From Chloroflexota bacterium (lineage in GTDB: Bacteria > Chloroflexota > Anaerolineae > UBA2200), in the NCBI GenBank assembly GCA_014360905.1, contig JACIWW010000008.1:1-64000 (forward strand): 64,000 bases of DNA. Direction: 5' to 3'. The notes beneath the pieces are model-generated. The model was given only the letters and a program-made list of their open reading frames with translations. It did not search any database and was not told the DNA's origin. Within the stretch, counting starts at the first letter, position 1; each line of letters starts with the position of its first letter. The translations under genes were made by a program, and so were the position numbers. Positions 540 through 57,878 of this stretch are shown one piece after another.

Positions 540-1508
540 ATGCTGAAAAAACGTATTGACTTGTTCATTGTACTGGCGTTGCTTGTTGCGTTGATCGGAA
601 TGAGTGCTTGTAAACAACGTGTACAACAGTCTCAACAAAGTCCCGCTCAACAAGCAGCGGAGAAGGCTCTGACCTGGCTGCGCACGCAGCAACAGGAAGA
701 TGGCAGTTTCAACATTGGCTTTGGCCACCCTGCGGGTGTTACCTGCGATGCCGTGCTGGCTATCGCTGCCAGTGGTGGCGATCCAGCAACATGGCGCACT
801 GTGGCGGGCAAACCTTCCCTCATTGATTACTTGGCTGCACATAGTGAAGAATACGCAACAGACGCAGCCACCACAGGCAAATTGATCGTCACGGTGGTTG
901 CTGCCGGCCTCAATCCCAGAAATTTTGGCGGGGTTGACTATGTGGCCCATCTGCAATCCTTTGCCAGTGCAAAAGGAGTCTACGATCCAGGTGCAGTGGG
1001 TCAAGCCTGGGCCATTCTCGCGCTGAAAGCAGCGGGGCAAGAGGTGCCTGCAGAGGCGTTGACTGTGCTTAAGAGTTACCAACTCGAAAGTGGTGCCTGG
1101 AACTCAGCCTTTGGACCAGACAACGATACCGTTTCTTATGTATTGCAGGCGCTTATCGCCGGAGGTGAACCCAAAGACTCTCCAGCGATCCGCAAGGCTC
1201 TAGCGTTTTTCCAAGAACAGCAGAATGAGGATGGCGGGTTCCCGGCCATCAAGCCTTCCGAGTGGGGCACGGACACGAACGCTAATTCCACCGCTGCGGT
1301 TATTATGGCACTGTACGCTGTCGGCGAAAAGCCCGAAGATGCCAAGTGGAGCAAACCTAGAGGCAATCCCATGACAGCCTTGTTGTCCCTGCAGGCTGCA
1401 GACGGCAAAATCGAGTTCCAGCCCGGCGTGGGTAGCCCAATCATGGCCACTGTTCAGGCCATCCCGGCGTTGCTAGGCAAGACTCTTCCAATACGCAGTC
1501 AGCGCTAG
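540..1508 (+). CDS. Lipoprotein with prenyltransferase/terpenoid-cyclase-like repeats, intrinsic-factor alpha-domain-like; candidate corrinoid-binding protein
   Basis: The 322-residue product has a lipoprotein signal, with lipobox MSAC and the modified cysteine at residue 24. The mature part contains repeats of the alpha/alpha-toroid type (QQEDGSF 51-57, QLESGAW 181-187, QNEDGGF 228-234) and the segment DTNANSTAAVIMALYAVG (245-262). Vertebrate intrinsic factor and transcobalamin use this fold as their alpha domain. The gene is first after a cobalamin riboswitch and precedes an ECF transporter, so I infer that it captures cobalamin or another corrinoid at the cell surface. AAAGGA near 524 serves as ribosome binding site. 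Toroid repeats also occur in cyclases and peptidase-like proteins, so direct B12 binding is inferred from context. Confidence 0.75.
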   Translation: MLKKRIDLFIVLALLVALIGMSACKQRVQQSQQSPAQQAAEKALTWLRTQQQEDGSFNIGFGHPAGVTCDAVLAIAASGGDPATWRTVAGKPSLIDYLAAHSEEYATDAATTGKLIVTVVAAGLNPRNFGGVDYVAHLQSFASAKGVYDPGAVGQAWAILALKAAGQEVPAEALTVLKSYQLESGAWNSAFGPDNDTVSYVLQALIAGGEPKDSPAIRKALAFFQEQQNEDGGFPAIKPSEWGTDTNANSTAAVIMALYAVGEKPEDAKWSKPRGNPMTALLSLQAADGKIEFQPGVGSPIMATVQAIPALLGKTLPIRSQR

Positions 1509-1572
1509 CGGAGAACTTGGTGGTCGGCGCTCGTGAGAAAACACCGACCACCAATACCTGCCTTAGGTAAAG

Positions 1573-2196
1573 ATGATGAATGGCAAGAAATCGGCACGAA
1601 CGACGTTGATCCTGGTTTTGCTGTACCTCGCGTTCATATCCACGTATACCGAAACTGCATCTTCGGGCGCTGCACAACCAAAGCACTGGGCCGGTCTTGT
1701 GGTGCAGTTTGGCGATGGCAGCTATATCACACGCTGCATACCCTTTGCTGAGGACAGCATCAGCGGCTTGGAGTTGCTCATGCGCTCGGGGCTGAGCATT
1801 GTAACGTGGGGTGGTGCTGTATGTCGCATCGAGCAGGACGGCTGTGACTATCCCACCATGCCTTGTTTCTGCCAATGCACTGGTGCCCAATGCCTTTACT
1901 GGAGTTATTGGCATTGGCGCGATGGACGTTGGGTCTATTCACAAGTGGGTTCTGCTGATTACCAGGTGCGCCATGGCGATATCGAGGGCTGGTCGTGGAG
2001 CGAGGGACAACCTCCTCCTGTCGTTCCCTTTGAGCAGATTTGCCCTCCAGAGTCAGTGGCCATTTTAGAACAAGCACATACTGCTACAGGGATTGACCGA
2101 AGCGCTATGCTGGTACAATATGCCGCTTTTGTCCTCATGACAGCGGTACTGGTCGGCAGCTTTTTCTTCCTTCAAAAACGCCAAAGGGAGCGATAA
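1573..2196 (+). CDS. Membrane-anchored DUF4430-like protein (transcobalamin beta-domain-like)
   Basis: The product has 207 residues, an N-terminal signal or anchor segment (about 8-25), one C-terminal membrane helix (about 181-200) and a basic cytoplasmic end. The exported middle part resembles DUF4430: SISGLELLMRSGLSI (62-76), an aromatic YWSYWHWRDGRW strand (109-120) and HGDIEGWSW (134-142). DUF4430 is the domain related to the beta half of intrinsic factor and transcobalamin. Six cysteines cluster at residues 84, 91, 98, 100, 102 and 107, which is unusual for the domain and suggests disulfides or a metal site. It follows the toroid lipoprotein by 64 nt and precedes EcfT by 3 nt. I infer that the two exported proteins together form a split corrinoid receptor. 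Confidence 0.65.
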   Translation: MMNGKKSARTTLILVLLYLAFISTYTETASSGAAQPKHWAGLVVQFGDGSYITRCIPFAEDSISGLELLMRSGLSIVTWGGAVCRIEQDGCDYPTMPCFCQCTGAQCLYWSYWHWRDGRWVYSQVGSADYQVRHGDIEGWSWSEGQPPPVVPFEQICPPESVAILEQAHTATGIDRSAMLVQYAAFVLMTAVLVGSFFFLQKRQRER

Positions 2197-2199
2197 CCA

Positions 2200-3354
2200 A
2201 TGCCCTACCACACGCTTACTTGGCTGGCATGGCTTGCTGCTGGAGCGTACCTGGCTTTGGTTAACCAGCAGCCACTTCAATCGCTGCTGTTTATCCTGGC
2301 GACTGGTTTGGTCTTTACCGTAGTCAGCCGTTCTAACGGCACACAATCGGGCACGGAATCCGCCTCGCTGCCTGCAGGACAATCGCTCAAGGTCGAAGGG
2401 TGGAGCACCTTTCTGCGCTTCGGCCTGTCGGTCTGGTTCGTGGCGCTCATTTTCAACCTGCTGTTCTCGCATACTGGCAACATTGTGCTATTCGTCTTGC
2501 CATGTAAGTGGCCCTTTATCGGCGGCCCCGTCACCTTGGAGGCTTTGCTCTACGGACTGGCCACCGGAGCTAGTTTATTTGCTGTTTTGCTGGTTTTTGC
2601 CACCTTTAACCTGGGGATGGATGTGCATCGTCTGTTACGCTGGCTTCCAGCGGGGCTTTATCAGGCTGGCCTGATTGTTTCCATCGCCTTGACCCTTGTA
2701 CCCCAATTGATCACCAGCCTCAAGGACATACGGGAAGCCCAACGCCTGCGTGGACATAAATTCCGAGGAATCAAAGACATGATACCCCTGTTTGTGCCTT
2801 TGTTGACCACAGCTTTGGAGCGCTCCTTGACCCTGGCTGAATCCATGGAGGCACGCGGCTTTGGCGGGATTGACCAATTCACCATGGCGGCCTCAGGCGT
2901 TGTCCCCATATCAACGACTACTGAACTCTCCACAACGAGCCTCCCACGCAATGCAACGTTGGCTGGATTGCTGGCGTTACTGGCAGGTCTTGTGTGGCAA
3001 GCGACAAACCGAGCGCGATGGCTAGGGTGGTCATTGGTTGGCTTGGGTGTTCTATTCGTATGCATTGCGCTCTACCTACAAGGCCGACGCTTGAAGCGCA
3101 CGCACTATCGTCGCGAAGTATGGCAGCAGCGTGATACCCTGGTAACGCTGGCTAGCCTGGCGTCTATTTCGATTGCTGCTTATACACAGGCACGGGATCC
3201 TGCCGCCTTATTCTATTACCCATACCCGCCTTTCTCCCCGTGGCCCAGGTTCACACCGCAACTTGGATTGGCTATTCTCCTGCTCGCTGCCCCCGCTATG
3301 TTATGGCCTTCTCGTGAAATATCCATCAAGCAGGCAAAGGACGATAACGGATGA
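2200..3354 (+). CDS. ecfT: ECF transporter transmembrane component EcfT
   Basis: This integral membrane protein of 384 residues would couple the S component to the ATPases in an energy-coupling-factor importer. The two cytoplasmic coupling motifs are visible: AQRLRG (180-185) and MEARGFG (about 216-222), both with the invariant Arg-Gly. The C-terminal 130 residues add further membrane helices that ordinary EcfT proteins of about 260 residues lack. The gene starts 3 nt after the DUF4430-like gene, and its stop overlaps the ATPase start by 4 nt (ATGA), so the operon is translationally coupled. The riboswitch makes cobalamin the probable substrate. Confidence 0.88.
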   Translation: MPYHTLTWLAWLAAGAYLALVNQQPLQSLLFILATGLVFTVVSRSNGTQSGTESASLPAGQSLKVEGWSTFLRFGLSVWFVALIFNLLFSHTGNIVLFVLPCKWPFIGGPVTLEALLYGLATGASLFAVLLVFATFNLGMDVHRLLRWLPAGLYQAGLIVSIALTLVPQLITSLKDIREAQRLRGHKFRGIKDMIPLFVPLLTTALERSLTLAESMEARGFGGIDQFTMAASGVVPISTTTELSTTSLPRNATLAGLLALLAGLVWQATNRARWLGWSLVGLGVLFVCIALYLQGRRLKRTHYRREVWQQRDTLVTLASLASISIAAYTQARDPAALFYYPYPPFSPWPRFTPQLGLAILLLAAPAMLWPSREISIKQAKDDNG

Positions 3355-27894: not shown

Positions 27895-29214
27895 TCACAA
27901 GGGTTGTCCATTCGCGTCGTAGCCCCGGCCAACGCCGCGATAGATAAATCCCAATTGCCTCATCTTTTCAGGTTCGTAGATATTGCGCCCGTCAAAAAGC
28001 ACGCGTTGACGCATGGACTGGGCAATGCGCGCCATGTCCAGTTGCTTGAACTCATTCCATTCTGTGACCAGGATCAAAGCATCTGCACCCTCAGCCACTG
28101 CATAAGGATTATCACAATACGTCACATTGTTGAGGATCTTGCGCGCGTTGTTCATCGCCACTGGGTCATAGGCTTTTACCTGCGCCCCCTCATGCTGCAA
28201 CATGTGGATGATCTCGATAGAAGGGGCATCGCGCATGTCGTCCGTATTTGGCTTGAAGGAGAGCCCCAGAATACCGATGGTCTTACCGCGGAAATTGCCC
28301 AGGATCTCGCGCACTTTCTGGATGACGCGCTTGCGCTGATCGTAGTTGATCTCCATGACTGCACGCAGCATCTGCGGGTGACAGCCGTGTGTTGCTGCGA
28401 TATGGGCCAGAGCTTTGACATCCTTGGGGAAGCAAGAGCCGCCCCAGCCTACGCCTGCGCCGAGAAAGGCATGGCCAATGCGCTTGTCGCTGCCCATGCC
28501 TAGAGCCACTTCCTTTACATCTGCCCCAAGCGCCTCACAGATGTTCGCCATTTCATTGATAAACGAGATCTTGGTTGCTAGGAAGCAGTTCGAAGCGTAC
28601 TTGATCATCTCCGCGGTGCGCAAGTCGGTGATAATGGTGGGAGATTGTAATGGGGCATAGAGCTCGGCCACTTTCTCCGCTGCTTGCCGATTGGTTGAGC
28701 CAAGCACGATTCGGTCGGGGTTCATGAAATCATAAACAGCCGAGCCCTCGCGCAGGAATTCTGGGTTGGAAACGACAAAGAATTCCACATCGTTCACCTT
28801 GTATTCATTGATAATGTCGGCTACCCAGTCTCCTGTCCCAATGGGCACGGTGCTCTTGTTCACGATGATCACGGGCTTGACCAGCCTTTTGGCAATATCC
28901 TCTGCGCACTGGGTTACATGGGAAAGGTCGGCTTCCCCCTCGCTTCCAGAGGGCGTGCCCACGGCGATGAAAATAAACTCGGCATCACGCAACCCTTCAT
29001 CGTAGGAAATGGTGAAATCGAGGCGCTGTGCCTCATGGTTACGGCGGACCATTTCCTCCAGGCCGGGCTCGAAAATGGGCAATATGCCCTTCTTTAGTCG
29101 CTCTGCCTTCTCCTTATCGCGGTTGACGCAGATGACCTTGTTGCCCAAATCGGCCAGACATGCTCCAGTAACCAAGCCAACATAGCCTACGCCGATGACA
29201 CAAATGTTTTTCAT
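27895..29214 (-). CDS. ugd: UDP-glucose 6-dehydrogenase family protein
   Basis: The 439-residue enzyme oxidises a nucleotide sugar twice, with NAD, to the uronate. The N-terminal fold reads [18 protein letters not shown] (6-23), the catalytic Cys lies in [16 protein letters not shown], and the C-terminal domain has [16 protein letters not shown]. These features fit UDP-glucose rather than GDP-mannose dehydrogenase, although the two are close. Product UDP-glucuronate would feed polysaccharide synthesis. The gene is first in its run and has a near-consensus promoter. Confidence 0.92.
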
Positions 29215-29251: not shown

Positions 29252-29280
29252 AATATAGCATTGGAGAGAGAAATTGTCAA
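29252..29280 (-). promoter_or_regulatory. Promoter of ugd and the genes behind it
   Basis: On the minus strand TTGACA (29275-29280), a 17-bp spacer and TATATT (29252-29257). It is back-to-back with the promoter at 29304-29331. Confidence 0.85.
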
Positions 29281-29303: not shown

Positions 29304-29331
29304 TTGACAAGCGGCGTATTTGTTGTATAAT
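29304..29331 (+). promoter_or_regulatory. Promoter of the hybrid ABC import operon
   Basis: TTGACA (29304-29309), a 16-bp spacer and TATAAT (29326-29331). Predicted start near 29338, leaving a leader of about 440 nt before the first coding sequence. Confidence 0.88.
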
Positions 29332-29337
29332 TTTATC

Positions 29338-29777
29338 TCGAAACAGCGCTGTCTCTTTCGAGAGAGCACCCAATACCTGCTTTCACTGCAGTAAAGGGGA
29401 GGGTCCCCTCTTGATTCAGGAGCTCTCTTCGTGAAGAGTAGATGAGGCTCGTATGTCGTTGGTGACATGCGTGTAGGTGCCTGTACAGGCTCTGCGGCGA
29501 GCCAAGCTCTCCTGGAAGGAGTTCAGCGCTTTTTGGTTCTCGTTATGGATTGAACCAAAAAGCGCGGGATGTGGTGAAAAATAAAAAGATATACGGTACT
29601 TCTTCCGCTTTGTGAGGAGTTTCATTTTACCTGTGCCTTTGACAAGGCAGCCAAATAACTCAAAGGAGGTGATTCTGCCTTAGCCAATCCAGGTAAACCG
29701 CTGGGCTGTTGACACGGGGGTGGGTTCCCTTGGTTTTCAGCCAGTGAACTATTGATCAAGCAAGAAGGAGGGCAATT
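29338..29777 (+). ncRNA. Long structured leader RNA, class not recognised
   Basis: No gene is seen between the promoter and 29778, but many stems are. They include AGGGGA/TCCCCT (29395-29409); CAGGAG (about 29417-29422) closing with CTCCTG (about 29509-29514) around the hairpin CTCTTCGTGAAGAG; and a GGCTCG/CGAGCC arm carrying TGTC/GACA and the palindrome GCCTGTACAGGC. A perfect 14-bp hairpin (29526-29539 with 29552-29565, loop 12 nt) follows, then TGCCTT/AAGGCA near 29633-29650. I compared it by eye with T-box, lysine, SAM, glycine, cobalamin and c-di-AMP elements and found no match. It may be an unknown riboswitch or attenuator for the transporter operon. Confidence 0.5.
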
Positions 29778-32120
29778 GTGAAAAGCAAGGTTTGGACTCT
29801 CATCGCTGTTTTCGTGGTGATTAGCATGGTACTGGCATCCTGCCGTCCGGCAGCCACGCCAACACCGACACCTAAGCCGCCGCCAACGCCAGTGCCACCA
29901 ACTGCTACACCAAAGCCCAAGCTCAAGATTACGGTGGCCACTGATGCCACTTGGCCGCCATTTGAGTATGTGGACGAAACAACCAAAGAGTTTGTGGGCT
30001 TTGACATTGACCTGATGAAGGCCATTGCCGAGGCGGCTGGCTTTGAGGTGGAATTCGTCAATGTCGCTTGGGATCCCCTGTTGGCTGGCATGGCCACAGG
30101 CCAATACGATGCTGCCATCTCTGCTATGACCATCACAGAGGAGCGCGCAAAGCAGTTTGACTTCTCCGAACCCTACTACAATGCAGGACAGCTTATTGCT
30201 GTGCGCATTGATGATACTCGCATCAAAGGGCCAGCAGACCTGGCGGGCAAAGTAGTGGGTGCTCAGCTCGGCACAACCGGCGCTATGGAAGTGGAAAAAA
30301 TCGCCGGTGCCACGCTCAAAAATTATGACACCATTGACCAAGCTTTCCTGGATCTCATCAATGGCCAGATTGACGCGGTGGTAGCGGATAACCCATTGGT
30401 GGCTGGCTATGTAGGGAAATACGCGGGTAAGATCAAGAGCGTCGGCGAACCCTTCACCGAGGAATTCTACGGCATTGCGGTGAAAAAGAACGCACCAGAG
30501 ATCCTGGAAGCCATCAACAAGGGCCTCAAGGCAGTGAAGGAGAAGGGCCTCATTGCTCAGCTCGAGGAGAAATGGGTCAAAGCAGCAGCACCTGCGCCAG
30601 CGCCAACGCCTGAAGCGGCTTGTGTATTAAAATCCGTGGAGAAGGTGGATGACTACACCGTTAGGTTCACCTTCCATCGCCCCCATGCTCCCTTCCTGGC
30701 ACAGTTGGCTTCAGCCATGATGCCCATGGTCAGCCCTGCGGCAGTGATGAAGTACATGGACGAGAGCTTCCGGAACCCAGTGGGCACAGGGCCGATGAAG
30801 TTCGTAGAGTGGAAGCCCGAAGATACCATCACCATTGTACGCAACGACGATTACTGGAGCGAAAAAGCCAAGCTGCAGAAGATGGTCTTCCGCGTCATCA
30901 AAGAGGACACCGCCCGGCTTCTGGAACTGCAGGCAGGGACGATTGACGGTGCTGACAGCATTCGGCCTGACGACATCCCCGTGGTCAGGGCAGATCCGAA
31001 CCTGCAACTGTACCTACGTCCGGCATTCACCATCGGCTACCTGGGGATGAACACAGACCGCGAACCCTTCAACAAACTCGAAGTACGACAGGCCATCAAC
31101 CATGCCATTGACAAGCAGGCCATTGTCAACGCTGTTGCACCCGAGACCGGACAGCCAGCGAAGGAATACCTGCCGCCATTGATGTGGGGCTATAATGACG
31201 AGATTGTGGACTATGAGTACAACCCTACCAAGGCTAAGGAACTGCTGGCCAAAGCTGGTTATCCCGAAGGTTTTGAGTTGTACTTGTGGTATCTACCGGT
31301 GCGCCGCTCCTACTACCCCGAGGCCAAGCTAATCGCCGAAATTATACAGAGCCAACTCAAAGCTATCGGCATTAACTGCCGCCTGGTAACTTACGACTGG
31401 GGTACTTACTTGTACAAGATCCGCCATGATGAGGCAGATCTGTGGATGCTGGGCTGGATGTCCGACTTTGGCGATCCGGACAACAACCTATTCACCTTCT
31501 TCAGCGGCTCCACCGACAGCTGGGCCAAAGGGCCGCCTGACAAGGAGCTGTATGACCTCTTAGTCAAGGCCAGGTCTGAGCCTGATATCGCCAAGCGCAC
31601 TGAGCTGTATAAGCAAGCCAACCAGCGTATCCATGACATCGCTCTGGGTGTACCGGTGATGCACAATGCGGGTGCCTTTGCCGCCAAGAAGGAAGTTAAA
31701 GGCATCGTGCCTGATCCCTTCTATCTAGAGTATTGGTGGGATATCGAGACTCCTACCGGTACCTTCATCTGGGGGCGAGCTGGCGATGCAGTCGGCCTGG
31801 ATGCCTGGGATGAGACCGATGGCGAATCCTTCATGGTTACGAACCAGATCTTCGAGGGTCTGTATGCCCGGAAGCCCGGAGCGACGGAAATCGAGCCAAA
31901 ACTAGCGGATGGGATGCCTGAAGTTTCCGCCGATGGCTTGGTGTGGACGATCAAACTCAAGAAGGGCATCAAGTTCCACGATGGAACGGACTTTAATGCT
32001 GATGCGGTAATCTTTAATATCGAGCGGGCCTGGGATCCGGACCATCCTTATCGCAATACCGCCCACACCAATGAATATGTCTACTTTGCCGACTTCTTCG
32101 GCGGATTCAAGGGAGAATAA
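29778..32120 (+). CDS. Double substrate-binding lipoprotein: SBP_bac_3 fused to a circularly permuted SBP_bac_5
   Basis: The 780-residue lipoprotein (lipobox LASC, Cys22; Pro/Thr spacer 24-46) begins with a complete amino-acid-binding domain (about 48-268: TWPPFEYVDE, FVGFDIDLMKAIA, DFSEPYY). After an Ala/Pro linker (269-280) comes a peptide-binding SBP_bac_5 domain in the wrong order. Residues 281-652 are its middle and C-terminal parts (VDDYTVRFTFHRP, NPVGTGPMKFVEWKPED, EVRQAINHAIDK, VTYDWGTYLYK). Residues 660-780 are its N-terminal part (GDAVGLDAWDETDGES, EVSADGLVWTIKLKKG, KFHDGTDFNADAVIF) and end at GGFKGE. In ordinary members GGFKGE leads directly into the segment found at 281. All junctions are in frame. 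A misassembly is possible. It heads an operon with permeases for both domain types. Confidence 0.85.
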   Translation: MKSKVWTLIAVFVVISMVLASCRPAATPTPTPKPPPTPVPPTATPKPKLKITVATDATWPPFEYVDETTKEFVGFDIDLMKAIAEAAGFEVEFVNVAWDPLLAGMATGQYDAAISAMTITEERAKQFDFSEPYYNAGQLIAVRIDDTRIKGPADLAGKVVGAQLGTTGAMEVEKIAGATLKNYDTIDQAFLDLINGQIDAVVADNPLVAGYVGKYAGKIKSVGEPFTEEFYGIAVKKNAPEILEAINKGLKAVKEKGLIAQLEEKWVKAAAPAPAPTPEAACVLKSVEKVDDYTVRFTFHRPHAPFLAQLASAMMPMVSPAAVMKYMDESFRNPVGTGPMKFVEWKPEDTITIVRNDDYWSEKAKLQKMVFRVIKEDTARLLELQAGTIDGADSIRPDDIPVVRADPNLQLYLRPAFTIGYLGMNTDREPFNKLEVRQAINHAIDKQAIVNAVAPETGQPAKEYLPPLMWGYNDEIVDYEYNPTKAKELLAKAGYPEGFELYLWYLPVRRSYYPEAKLIAEIIQSQLKAIGINCRLVTYDWGTYLYKIRHDEADLWMLGWMSDFGDPDNNLFTFFSGSTDSWAKGPPDKELYDLLVKARSEPDIAKRTELYKQANQRIHDIALGVPVMHNAGAFAAKKEVKGIVPDPFYLEYWWDIETPTGTFIWGRAGDAVGLDAWDETDGESFMVTNQIFEGLYARKPGATEIEPKLADGMPEVSADGLVWTIKLKKGIKFHDGTDFNADAVIFNIERAWDPDHPYRNTAHTNEYVYFADFFGGFKGE

Positions 32121-32142
32121 GTTCATCCGGTTCTAAATCCTA

Positions 32143-32177
32143 CCACAGTGCAGGGAGAGTATTTCCCTGCACTGTGG
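32143..32177 (+). other. Strong intercistronic hairpin after the binding-protein gene
   Basis: CCACAGTGCAGGGA (32143-32156) pairs perfectly with TCCCTGCACTGTGG (32164-32177), loop 7 nt, without a T-run. Such hairpins after binding-protein genes commonly protect the upstream mRNA so that the binding protein exceeds the permeases. Confidence 0.75.
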
Positions 32178-32197
32178 CCTGATAAGAGGGCAGACAT

Positions 32198-33277
32198 TTG
32201 ACTCGCTATATCATCCAGCGTTTGATACTATTGGTTTTCGTTCTATTGGGGATTTCCGTCATCACTTTCACCATGATGCACCTCGTGCCAGGCACTCCGG
32301 CTGATGTGATGTTGGGAGAGCATGCCACGGACGAGAAAGTAGCACGCTTCAGGAAAGCGTACGGCCTTGATGATCCCATCCCCGTGCAATACCTGCGCTA
32401 TCTCGGCAAAATTGCGCGCGGTGATTTTGGACGCTCTGTGCGTACCAATTTCCTGGTCACGGAAGAATTGGCCCAGCGTTTGCCGGCCACGGTAGAGCTG
32501 ACTGTTGGCGCCATGCTTGTGGCTTGCTTGATTGGCATTCCTGCCGGCATCCTCGCTGCTTATCACCACAATTCATTTTTCGATTTAATTACCATGGTTG
32601 GTAGCCTGATCGGCGTTTCTATGCCGGTTTTCTGGCTCGGTCTGGTCTTGAGTTATATTTTTGGTTTCCGACTCCATGTACTTCCTCCTTCAGCACGCCT
32701 GACAGTGGGAGTAGAATTGCCTACTATCACAGAAGTCTATAACCTTCGCACTATCTTTACGGGTTCCTTTGGCAACAAGATCATAGCATTCAGCGATTTC
32801 CTTTCGAATTTCTATGTTTTCACTGCCCTAGTCACTGGCAATCCAGAAGCTTTGATAGATGCCTTGAAGCATCTCATCCTTCCTTCTCTAGCTCTGGGGA
32901 CGATCCCTATGGCGAATATCGCCCGCATGACCCGTAGCAGCCTGCTCGAAGTCTTGGGCCAGGACTATATTCGCACTGCCCGGGCTAAGGGACTTCCGGA
33001 ACGAATGGTGATCTTGGTACATGCCTTGAAGAACGCCTTTTTGCCCATCATCACCGTCATTGGCCTCTTATTGGGTGGCCTCTTGGGAGGTGCTATCCTG
33101 ACAGAGACCATCTTCTCCTGGCCTGGTATGGGCCGCCTGGTAGTGGACCGCGTCCTAGCCCGTGACTATCCAGCCGTGCAAGGTGGTGTCATGGTGATTG
33201 CGTTATTATTTGTGCTGCTCAATCTTTTAGTGGATATATCCTATGCCTACCTTGATCCTCGCATCCGTTATGAGTAG
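32198..33277 (+). CDS. Peptide/nickel-type ABC permease, DppB-like
   Basis: The 359-residue membrane protein starts at a TTG preceded by AGAGGG. It shows the DppB/OppB N-terminus (RYIIQRLILLVFVLLGISVITF and VPGTPAD) and the ATPase-coupling loop with RMTRSSLLEVLGQDYIRTARAKGL. An insertion at about 170-215 between helices makes it longer than the usual 310-340 residues. It would pair with the following DppC-like permease for the SBP_bac_5 part of the upstream protein. No DppD/DppF ATPases are found in the operon. Confidence 0.92.
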   Translation: MTRYIIQRLILLVFVLLGISVITFTMMHLVPGTPADVMLGEHATDEKVARFRKAYGLDDPIPVQYLRYLGKIARGDFGRSVRTNFLVTEELAQRLPATVELTVGAMLVACLIGIPAGILAAYHHNSFFDLITMVGSLIGVSMPVFWLGLVLSYIFGFRLHVLPPSARLTVGVELPTITEVYNLRTIFTGSFGNKIIAFSDFLSNFYVFTALVTGNPEALIDALKHLILPSLALGTIPMANIARMTRSSLLEVLGQDYIRTARAKGLPERMVILVHALKNAFLPIITVIGLLLGGLLGGAILTETIFSWPGMGRLVVDRVLARDYPAVQGGVMVIALLFVLLNLLVDISYAYLDPRIRYE

Positions 33278-33328
33278 AATGTTATTCCACGTCCTTGGCA
33301 CTAATTACGCTTTGTTGAGAAGGCACAA

Positions 33329-34231
33329 ATGAGATCAGCAAGCCTGCAAGAACTGAGTTCTACTACCTTCCAATTAGAAAAACGAGTTCCAACCAATCTG
33401 TGGCAGGATGCGTTACGCCGATTGTTGCGGAACAAGTTAGCTGTTGTGGGCATGTTGATTCTAGCTGTTTTTTTGCTCTGTGCACTATTTGCTCCCCTCT
33501 TAGCCCCGTACGATCCATTGGAACAAAGGTTAGTTTTGCGTCGTCAGCCCCCTTCACAACAGTATCCCTTTGGCCTGGATGATTTGGGCCGCGACATTTT
33601 GAGCCGCATTATCTTTGGGGCACAGGTCTCTTTGCGTGTAGGAGTGCTTTCAGTTAGCCTGGCCATTATCCTTGGTACTTTGTTGGGCCTTGTATCTGGC
33701 TACTTGGGAGGTTGGGCCGACAACCTAATCATGCGCTTTATGGATATTGCGTTGGCTTTTCCTGCCATGCTGTTGGCTATCGCCATTGTGGCTATCCTGG
33801 GGCCTGGCCTGATGAATATGTTGATTGCCATTGCCCTTGTTTCTATCCCTACTTATGCTCGCTTAGTCCGCTCTCAAGTGCTATCTGTCAAAGCACAGGA
33901 TTATATCCTAGCTGCACGGGCGATTGGTGTAACCCACAGCCGTATACTCTTTCGCAACATCCTGCCCAATTCTATCACTCCCATTATTGTTCAGGGCACG
34001 TTAGGCATAGCTACAGCCATCCTGGATGCGGCTGGCCTCAGTTTTCTGGGGCTAGGGGCTCAACCCCCCACGCCGGAGTGGGGAGCTATGTTGGGTGAGG
34101 GCAGGTTTTCCATGTTTACTGCTCCTCACATTATCATTTTCCCTGGTATAGCGATTATGCTCACTGTTTTGGGGTTCAATCTGCTGGGCGATGGCCTGCG
34201 CGATGCCCTGGACCCACGCCTGCGCATGTAG
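33329..34231 (+). CDS. Peptide/nickel-type ABC permease, DppC-like
   Basis: The 300-residue membrane protein has the OppC/DppC N-terminal hairpin (LRRLLRNKLAVVGMLILAVFLLCALFAPLLAPYDP), then FGLDDLGRDILSRIIFGAQVSL and the coupling loop RSQVLSVKAQDYILAARAIGV. It forms the second half of the permease pair with the DppB-like protein 51 nt upstream. The usual peptide-transporter ATPases do not follow; an amino-acid permease comes next instead. Confidence 0.92.
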   Translation: MRSASLQELSSTTFQLEKRVPTNLWQDALRRLLRNKLAVVGMLILAVFLLCALFAPLLAPYDPLEQRLVLRRQPPSQQYPFGLDDLGRDILSRIIFGAQVSLRVGVLSVSLAIILGTLLGLVSGYLGGWADNLIMRFMDIALAFPAMLLAIAIVAILGPGLMNMLIAIALVSIPTYARLVRSQVLSVKAQDYILAARAIGVTHSRILFRNILPNSITPIIVQGTLGIATAILDAAGLSFLGLGAQPPTPEWGAMLGEGRFSMFTAPHIIIFPGIAIMLTVLGFNLLGDGLRDALDPRLRM

Positions 34232-34293
34232 AGCTAGCCGATTGCTGCAGTTCTAGCTACCTTCATTCATGCGGGAATGAGGAAACTTTTATC

Positions 34294-35139
34294 ATGACAT
34301 ACAAAGAGATTCGTGCGAATACTAAAACGCTCACTTCTACCGAAGAGACCAAGCCTATTTGGCAACGAATAGACCGCTGGTGGCTGCTATTTATCAGCGT
34401 GGTGCTCATTACCCTGTTTTTGATCAGCAGCAAGCCAGATCCGTATCGGCGCATCTTCGTCTTCCTCGAAGATGGCGTCCGCGTGACCATGAGCATTACG
34501 GTGTTATCTTTTTTATTGATACTTTTGGTAGGACTGATCGGCGGGCTGGGGCGCATAGCCAAGAATCCTCTTATCAAAGGGATCGCCTCGATATACGTTG
34601 AGGTTATTCGTGGCATACCGCTTTTGGTACAACTCTTGTTCATCTATTATGCCTCTCCTATCTTACTGCGAGATGTTGGGATAAAACTGATAGGCGCCTG
34701 GCCGAGTTTTGCCCATAGGTTAATCAATATCAAATTGAATCCCTTTGGAGCGGCTGTAGCAGGCCTGACTATCTGTTACGGAGCGTACATGTCGGAGATC
34801 TTCCGTGCTGGTATCGAATCCATTCCCAAAGGGCAAATGGAAGCGGCACGCTCGTTGGGGATGAGTTATTTTCAGGCTATGCGCTACATCATCTTGCCCC
34901 AAGCTGTACGCATTATTTTGCCACCCGTAGGCAACGAATTTGTAGCGCTGTTGAAGGACTCTTCGCTGGTCTCGGTCGTAGCCGTCGCCGACATGACGCG
35001 TAGAGGGCGCGAGTTTATGGCCAGTACTTTTCTGGCTCTTGAAACCTGGATGATGGTGGCGCTGTTGTATTTAGTCATGACCCTGTTTCTCTCTCGTATT
35101 GTAGCCTATCTAGAGAGGAAGACGACTTTTGTCCGATAA
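34294..35139 (+). CDS. Polar amino-acid ABC permease (HisM/GlnP-like)
   Basis: The 281-residue membrane protein has an extra N-terminal helix (WWLLFISVVLITLFLI) and then the HisMQ-type permease: GVRVTMSITVLSFLLILLVG, IYVEVIRGIPLLVQL and the coupling motif EAARSLGMSYFQAMRYIILPQA. A 25-residue insertion sits after VQLLFIYYASPIL. It should serve the SBP_bac_3 half of the fused binding protein together with the next gene, as a homodimer. Its 3' end overlaps the ATPase gene by 11 nt. Confidence 0.92.
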   Translation: MTYKEIRANTKTLTSTEETKPIWQRIDRWWLLFISVVLITLFLISSKPDPYRRIFVFLEDGVRVTMSITVLSFLLILLVGLIGGLGRIAKNPLIKGIASIYVEVIRGIPLLVQLLFIYYASPILLRDVGIKLIGAWPSFAHRLINIKLNPFGAAVAGLTICYGAYMSEIFRAGIESIPKGQMEAARSLGMSYFQAMRYIILPQAVRIILPPVGNEFVALLKDSSLVSVVAVADMTRRGREFMASTFLALETWMMVALLYLVMTLFLSRIVAYLERKTTFVR

Positions 35140-35866
35140 CATTATCGAAATCGAACATGTGAGCAAGCGTTTTGGGCGGGTAGTTGCCTTAGATGATGTC
35201 AGCCTGACCGTGAAACGTGGTGAGGTGGTGGTCATCATTGGCCCCAGTGGCTCCGGCAAGTCTACACTCCTTCGGTGCATCAACCATCTGGAGACAATAG
35301 ACAGCGGGCGGATTGTCGTGGATGGCATCCCACTCACCGAGGCCAAGAATATTGACAAAGTACGGGCTGAGGTGGGCATGGTTTTTCAATTGTTCAATCT
35401 TTTTCCCCACCTGACAGCTCTGGAGAACATTACCTTAGCACAACGCGTCGTGCGCAAGAGGTCACAGCAGGAGGCGGAAGAGATCGCTCGTCAACTACTG
35501 GCCAAGGTAGGCATTCCGGAGAAAGCAAACGCCTATCCTGCGCAGCTTTCTGGTGGTCAACAACAACGAGTAGCTATCGCTCGCGCGCTAGCCATGCAGC
35601 CAAAGATCATGCTTTTCGACGAACCAACTTCTGCACTGGACCCAGAGATGATCAAAGAAGTATTGGACGTGATGTTGGATCTGGCCAGAGAAGGTATGAC
35701 CATGGTAGTGGTATCGCACGAGATGGGCTTTGTCAAAGCCGCTGCCAAGCGCATCTTTTTCATGTGCGAGGGGCATATCATTGAAGAGACAACGCCTGAT
35801 GGCCTTTCGTTGGCTGCCTGCAAGGAAGAACGCACTAGGCAATTTCTTAGCAAGATACTGATCTAG
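35129..35866 (+). CDS. glnQ: Polar amino-acid ABC ATPase (GlnQ/HisP-like)
   Basis: The 245-residue ATPase starts at a TTG behind AGAGAGGAAG, inside the end of the permease gene. It has Walker A GPSGSGKST (33-41), the Q-loop VFQLFNLFPHLT, signature LSGGQQQR and Walker B IMLFDEPTSALDPE. The usual family sequence VVTHEM appears as VVSHEMGF. This is the only ATPase in an operon that also encodes a DppB/DppC-like pair, so either it serves only the amino-acid permease or it energises both. Confidence 0.94.
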   Translation: MSDNIIEIEHVSKRFGRVVALDDVSLTVKRGEVVVIIGPSGSGKSTLLRCINHLETIDSGRIVVDGIPLTEAKNIDKVRAEVGMVFQLFNLFPHLTALENITLAQRVVRKRSQQEAEEIARQLLAKVGIPEKANAYPAQLSGGQQQRVAIARALAMQPKIMLFDEPTSALDPEMIKEVLDVMLDLAREGMTMVVVSHEMGFVKAAAKRIFFMCEGHIIEETTPDGLSLAACKEERTRQFLSKILI

Positions 35867-57515: not shown

Positions 57516-57522
57516 AGCGCCA

Positions 57523-57878
57523 AAGCGGTGAAGGAGAGAGTAGGAGATCCACCGAAGCACAGAGAGCTACGCCAGGTGAGAGGTAGCCTTCAGGAATCTC
57601 TGAAAGACACTCTGGAGCTGCGCGGTCGAAAAGCTGATTAGCAAAAGAGCGCCTCGTGTCGTCCTGAATGGGGGACTGCAATGATGCAGAAGCGAAAAGA
57701 TGACTCCGCTCGTTTCAGTAGGACAGGCAATCGTGATTGAACAGCGTAGTAGGCTGCGCCGGATGCTCCCGTTAGCGAGCTTGGGTTATTAACCCACAGA
57801 GTCACTGGCCAGAAGGCTAGTGAGAATAAAGGTGGCACCACGGGAAACCCCGTCCTTTAGTCAGGCGGGGTATTTTTT
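57523..57878 (+). promoter_or_regulatory. T-box riboswitch leader of aspS
   Basis: The T-box core AAGGTGGCACCACGG lies at 57829-57843 and is followed by the terminator CCCCG (57848-57852)/CGGGG (57866-57870) with TATTTTTT. The Stem I region has the GAGAGAGTAG pattern near 57534-57543 and a candidate specifier GAC at 57606-57608 inside GAAAGACACTCTGG, consistent with tRNA-Asp. Uncharged tRNA binding should prevent termination and allow aspS expression. Confidence 0.9.

Follow-up and report, generated by a model that had tools for sequence, protein, structure and literature searches.

A structured RNA and a start-codon-less distal Shine-Dalgarno sequence in the leader of an Anaerolineae ABC-transporter operon

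The leader and the operon behind it

The 440 nucleotides (nt) considered here, positions 29338 to 29777, lie in a 64,000-nt stretch of DNA from a Chloroflexota bacterium (assembly GCA_014360905.1, contig JACIWW010000008.1, positions 1 to 64,000 of the forward strand; hereafter the window) and precede the operon of an ATP-binding cassette (ABC) transporter. An earlier note, made from the sequence alone, had treated them as a single leader of unknown class. A conserved, structured leader is indeed present, but it consists of two separable parts: Module A, a family-specific structured RNA outside Rfam at the inferred 5' end of the transcript, and Module C, an unrelated distal Shine-Dalgarno sequence without usable start codon, which recurs throughout the class and is tied there to genes for exported proteins. 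Of the two, the class-wide distal Shine-Dalgarno sequence is the more surprising. Tentatively, and with somewhat less than even confidence, we read the 440 nt as a two-module 5' leader, with Module A as an attenuator and Module C as a stabiliser of the operon's mRNA.

The genome of the window (G000) belongs to a family from which six genomes (G000 to G005; Chloroflexota, Anaerolineae) were compared, and a solute-binding protein/ABC-transporter operon stands behind the leader in all six. The leader of G001, a member of the same genus, is 76% identical across 438 nt; those of G004 and G005 were reached through a 28-nt match, and those of G002 and G003 through the orthologous gene. In the window, the operon (29778-35866) encodes the binding protein, which is a fusion, two dipeptide-type permeases, one further BPD_transp_1 permease and one ABC ATPase.

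The promoter, described earlier as near-perfect, matches the consensus at all 12 positions; the 2 kb scanned hold four promoter-like sites, against 1.4 +/- 1.4 in shuffles. The lack of coding potential over about 440 nt was likewise borne out, with no plus-strand open reading frame of at least 60 amino acids inside the leader in the list of such frames, and no reading frame conserved across it. In the window, the promoter scan gave no further promoter between Module A and the gene. The family leaders tested, those of G001, G005, G002 and G003 (also labelled L107, L110, L112 and L113, respectively; L110 is Anaerolineales bacterium UBA2200, of the Chloroflexota, Anaerolineae, and L113 is UBA6131), have one promoter each with at most two mismatches (4/4), and none has a second of this quality in the interval from Module A to the gene. 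As no promoter was found in this interval, the gene depends on read-through of Module A, as far as can be told from sequence.

Table 1. Features of the leader and its first gene (positions in the window; RBS, ribosome-binding site)
Feature	Position	Strand	Basis or remark
Sigma-70 type promoter TTGACA-16-TATAAT	29304..29331	+	Promoter scan; also checked in relatives
Module A, structured RNA at inferred transcript 5' end	29340..29536	+	Covariance model R1, alignments
P1 5' strand AGCGCUG	29345..29351	+	97.5% of cells paired; 2/7 pairs changed on both sides
P2 hairpin UCUC-UUUC-GAGA, or 5' strand of a rod lengthening P1	29352..29363	+	Alignment, folds
P5 hairpin GGCUC-UGCGGC-GAGCC, conserved loop UGYGGY	29488..29503	+	Alignments; C-G to U-A in G002
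P6 hairpin CUCCU-GGA-AGGAG, or 3' strand of the rod	29509..29521	+	Alignment, folds
P1 3' strand CAGCGCU	29524..29530	+	Alignment pairing
14-bp hairpin absorbing P1 3' strand and U-run, candidate antiterminator	29526..29565	+	Complementarity, folds
U-run directly behind P1, terminator-like	29530..29534	+	Sequence; U5 to U7 in 5/6 family sequences
Module C, distal Shine-Dalgarno AAAGGAGGTG without usable start codon	29662..29671	+	106 nt before gene start
GGGGGTGGGTTCCC hairpin behind distal Shine-Dalgarno	29716..29729	+	GGKTRGGTTCCC kept in G002, G004, G005, G023; one mismatch in G001
Gene RBS AAGGAGGG	29765..29772	+	Sequence
Lipoprotein gene, SBP_bac_3 fused to circularly permuted SBP_bac_5	29778..32120	+	Open reading frame list, domain matches

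A family-specific structured RNA at the 5' end

The multiple stems noticed earlier belong to a genuinely structured leader, which folds at -160.8 kcal/mol compared with -141.1 +/- 6.2 kcal/mol in dinucleotide shuffles (z -3.2). This excess is confined to the first ~230 nt (29338-29570, z -4.0); the segment 29567-29800 is no more stable than expected by chance (z +0.18). The individual stems that had been singled out fared less well. The perfect 14-bp hairpin exists (29526-29539/29552-29565; 14 nt, 100% complementary) but is well formed only within the genus, while the CAGGAG/CTCCTG helix, taken to close a three-way junction, is not conserved, with four of its six positions unpaired in the closest relative, G001, and 70.4% paired overall. 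The impression that the leader resembles no known riboswitch agrees with our covariance-model scan: at the gathering score it matches no family in Rfam 15, known riboswitches and leaders included, nor is there a credible match up to E = 10, the best (E 0.97) being a microRNA family far under the cut-off. According to ARAGORN, the leader is neither a tRNA nor a transfer-messenger RNA (tmRNA).

In an alignment of the six family sequences, the closing stem P1 pairs in all six although its letters differ, with exchanges of G-C to A-U and of U-A to C-G. Taken together, P1, P2, P5 and P6 have 88.7% of their cells paired, against 38-60% in slid controls. Alternatively, P2 and P6 can form a joint helix that extends P1 into a rod, an arrangement favoured by most folds of the core. 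Conserved blocks are found in the loop of P5 and, as GAAACARCGCUGUCUC, at the 5' end; the middle of the module (roughly columns 40-110 of the alignment) lacks such conservation.

How widely is this RNA distributed? The covariance model R1, built from four of the sequences and searched in 298 genomes of the class, recovers G002, which was absent from its training set, with 54 bits (E 1e-13). Its strong matches are the four source sequences and G002, that is, five of the six family genomes, and outside the family the 298 genomes hold no match of comparable strength. Weak matches (E 0.0007-0.03) occur in G160, G115, G089 and G105, outside the family, and a second time in G005. Among seven genomes of the order, five give strong matches and two, G003 and G006, are negative; G003 was assigned to the Module A set by its position and its first 16 nt. 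No copy of Module A was found outside the family in the window's own genome, in 47 of 80 loci, in the seven genomes of the order or in plasmids.

When the downstream segment is added to the fold, P1 disappears from the minimum-energy structure in four of the six sequences (G000, G001, G003 and G004) and is kept in G002 and G005. In G000 and G001 its place is taken by the 14-bp hairpin, which contains the 3' strand of P1 together with the U-run. The sequences show what would be the layout of an intrinsic terminator or attenuator, a stem with a U-run in five of six and a competing fold in four of six.

A distal Shine-Dalgarno sequence before genes for exported proteins

The sequence AAAGGAGGTG is complementary to the 3' end of the genome's own 16S gene, AAAGGAGGTGAT pairing with GGATCACCTCCTTT; a 5' untranslated sequence complementary to 16S is what characterizes the stabilising Shine-Dalgarno elements of Bacillus, termed STAB-SD. 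The GTG that overlaps the motif in the window opens just four codons. The whole genome contains 44 AAAGGAGGTG sites, compared with 16 for the reversed motif, and gene starts could be called for 34 of them. These fall into distinct groups: 15 lie 1-9 nt from the start, 16 at 66-113 nt and three at 153-239 nt, with none at 10-65 nt. Ten sites have no callable start, one of them being the 16S gene itself read backwards. Distance goes with protein class, as called by a simple hydropathy and lipobox script rather than a signal-peptide program: of the distal sites at 66-113 nt, 15/16 precede exported or membrane proteins, whereas the close sites precede 13 soluble and two exported or membrane proteins (Fisher p 7e-6).

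The same tie is seen across the class. The pattern of AAAGGAGGTG followed 76-131 nt later by the RBS GGAGGAGA occurs 123 times in 84 of the 298 class genomes, against nine matches of the reversed pattern. Of 77 matches examined, which are not independent because related genomes repeat some genes, 68 precede lipoproteins, three proteins with a signal or transmembrane segment and three soluble proteins; two were too short and one had no start. Pfam assigned all ten genes examined to solute-binding proteins, of families 1, 3, 5, 6 or 8. A sample of the phylum gave matches in 13 of 301 genomes, namely 9/38 class members and 4/263 others (assigned by the kinship column). Since the pattern requires the RBS GGAGGAGA, the class and phylum figures are lower bounds that favour genes with strong RBSs; the test on the window's own genome had no such requirement. 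Coupled to the GGKTRGGTTCCC hairpin, the distal Shine-Dalgarno sequence is narrower in its distribution than on its own (5/298 genomes); four of these matches lie in the family's leaders and the fifth, in G023, precedes another lipoprotein gene.

Promoter-like sites occur within 300 nt before the motif in 28 of 88 class leaders (about 2 in shuffles), within 100 nt in 14, and between motif and gene in none of the 88. As promoters precede the motif and none intervenes, the motif lies in the 5' untranslated region wherever a promoter is visible. Among open-licence papers, we found no title or abstract that deals with such leaders in Chloroflexota.

Could the distal Shine-Dalgarno sequence serve a short leader peptide, the translation of which regulates the gene or is coupled to it? 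We consider this very unlikely and have rejected such control, since no short open reading frame is conserved behind the motif and the frames look random. An ATG does follow AAAGGAGGTG directly at 28 of 91 sites, and the gene's own RBS is where some of the small frames stop. Compared with shuffled leaders, however, the frames show no excess of length (median 10 codons versus 14.8 +/- 3.6) or of ends near the gene start (5 versus 6.3 +/- 2.1); start codons are not enriched within reach of the motif relative to the rest of the leader (19/40 versus 15.5 +/- 2.9), and the frame in the window, as mentioned above, has only four codons.

Attenuation and stabilisation as a possible mechanism

What might the two modules do? 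In the reading we prefer, Module A would fold right behind the transcription start, and its closing stem P1, which runs into the U-run and therefore is a candidate intrinsic terminator, would together with that run halt transcription. The downstream segment would draw the 3' strand of P1 and the U-run into the competing hairpin and so let RNA polymerase pass, making Module A a family-specific attenuator. Attenuation is plausible because in the genus the 14-bp hairpin captures precisely these two elements. On transcripts that are read through, a 30S subunit would then bind Module C and block 5'-to-3' decay of the RNase J type, with the effect that the mRNA of the solute-binding protein stays abundant, as reported for STAB-SD in Bacillus. 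Termination, switching, 30S binding and stabilisation are functions that we infer from sequence.

The best parallel for Module C is STAB-SD, and protection of these mRNAs is suggested by that analogy. The cry3A message is described as carrying, near position -129, a Shine-Dalgarno sequence that starts no translation, binds 30S and blocks RNase J1 (PMC4113751), and strong Shine-Dalgarno sequences without start codon are reported to stabilise Bacillus mRNAs (PMC3997798). As far as these accounts go, Module C is alike in its complementarity to 16S, in showing no sign of a conserved upstream open reading frame and in occurring in a genome that encodes RNase J (615 bits). It differs in being placed class-wide before genes for exported proteins in Anaerolineae, whereas STAB-SD was described from cry3A of Bacillus. 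For Module A, the device closest in its mode of action is the HMP-PP (thiS) riboswitch, a terminator-embedded sensor whose sensor domain is reported to overlap the terminator stem and whose competing stems decide on read-through (PMC6478431); Module A, in contrast, is a multi-armed RNA of ~195 nt with no relation in Rfam. Terminator and antiterminator also compete in the long leaders of T-box genes, but our leader has no T-box match, although the window has a true T-box leader at 57519-57860, above the Rfam gathering score. The motif GGGGTGGGTTCCCC, which we considered as a T-box antiterminator, was rejected for want of room for a second helix, judged by eye against the T-box core.

Several observations weigh against a two-module attenuator and stabiliser. 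The Bacillus element lies near the 5' end of the RNA, whereas Module C is separated from the inferred start by ~320 nt, which include a structured module. It has one mismatch in G001 and is absent from G003, whose Module A is also rejected by the covariance model. The competing hairpin varies in strength, being strong in G000 and G001, formed in the G003 fold and weak in G004 and G005, and shows no significant covariation; G002, with a poor U-run, retains P1. The core exceeds shuffles in stability by only 1.3-1.5 standard deviations in G001 and G002. Finally, collecting homologous leaders and testing them for covariation, as the earlier note had recommended, gave a divided answer: P1 is kept with changes on both sides, yet the number of changed pairs does not rise significantly above the shuffle control, in which 127 of 500 reach three pairs, as expected with only six related rows.

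In one alternative, which we hold to be unlikely, Module A would be a metabolite riboswitch whose ligand is the solute that the operon imports, with P1 and the U-run as its expression platform. The conserved blocks in the P5 loop and at the 5' end, the mutually exclusive pairing of P1 and the hairpin, the unvarying place before the transporter in 6/6 family genomes and the precedent of the HMP-PP aptamer (PMC6478431) would all fit. However, there is no Rfam riboswitch match, the middle of the module is unconserved, and the RNA is confined to one operon type in one family, with no second gene context to hint at a ligand. The more specific suggestion of a sensor for the imported amino acid or peptide had been drawn from position only; we do not uphold it, as nothing found points to a ligand.

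The main alternative to attenuation, which we nevertheless regard as improbable, is that Module A constitutes an independent small RNA gene, equipped with a promoter and a terminator, and that the mRNA of the transporter arises by read-through. A promoter, a folded RNA of ~195 nt, a closing stem and a U-run do form a complete transcription unit, and at six loci of other Anaerolineales (L120, L122, L123, L124, L126 and L173) the corresponding place, immediately before the orthologue of the binding-protein gene, is occupied by a strong promoter and a complete tRNA-Leu(GAG) gene. Against this, the transporter gene would depend on read-through anyway, given the single promoter of the family leaders tested, and Module A is neither a tRNA nor tmRNA. 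Nor is it 6S RNA (RF00013), which it resembles in being a largely rod-like RNA of 180-200 nt behind a strong promoter: a dedicated search places the genome's own 6S gene on contig C15, and Module A is not among its matches up to E = 10.

It is less probable still that the folding is incidental, the leader being merely long and its conserved blocks due to recent common descent. The six sequences are related, the shuffle control on changed pairs is not significant and the excess stability in G001 and G002 is small; but P1 pairs in 6/6 despite different letters, G002 was recovered by a model built without it, pairing drops in the slid controls, and Module C recurs across the class with unrelated flanks.

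A broader proposal we consider possible though short of probable: a start-codon-less Shine-Dalgarno sequence about 75-145 nt before the start would be a functional mark of those Anaerolineae mRNAs that encode exported and membrane proteins, solute-binding lipoproteins in particular, loading of 30S on the leader would protect or position these messages, and the family of the window would have inserted a terminator-coupled RNA sensor ahead of it. Start-codon-less stabilisers have so far come from single Bacillus genes; if the proposal holds, their class-wide placing would amount to a general way of setting the excess of binding protein over permease. Dozens of natural leaders with a distal Shine-Dalgarno sequence are available for direct tests, and Module A, though narrow, is a testable candidate attenuator outside Rfam.

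Some further observations concern the binding protein and the surroundings of the leader. The circular permutation of SBP_bac_5 is seen in residues about 283-580, which match profile positions 64-366, while the C-terminal part matches positions 1-60. The fused protein has nearly full-length matches in G001, G004, G005, G033 and G045; in G006 (L075, reverse strand, about 1460-3000) it carries an extra N-terminal ~410 amino acids in an open frame of 1140. In G049 (L078, first 700 nt, reverse strand), the region ahead of the binding-protein gene contains a tandem repeat of ~149 nt in four copies. Elsewhere in the window, Rfam places a cobalamin riboswitch at 289-431, above the gathering score. 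A divergent promoter (TTGACA-17-TATATT, with TG ahead of the second hexamer) on the minus strand at 29252-29280 sits upstream of a gene of the UDP-glucose dehydrogenase family (27895-29214).
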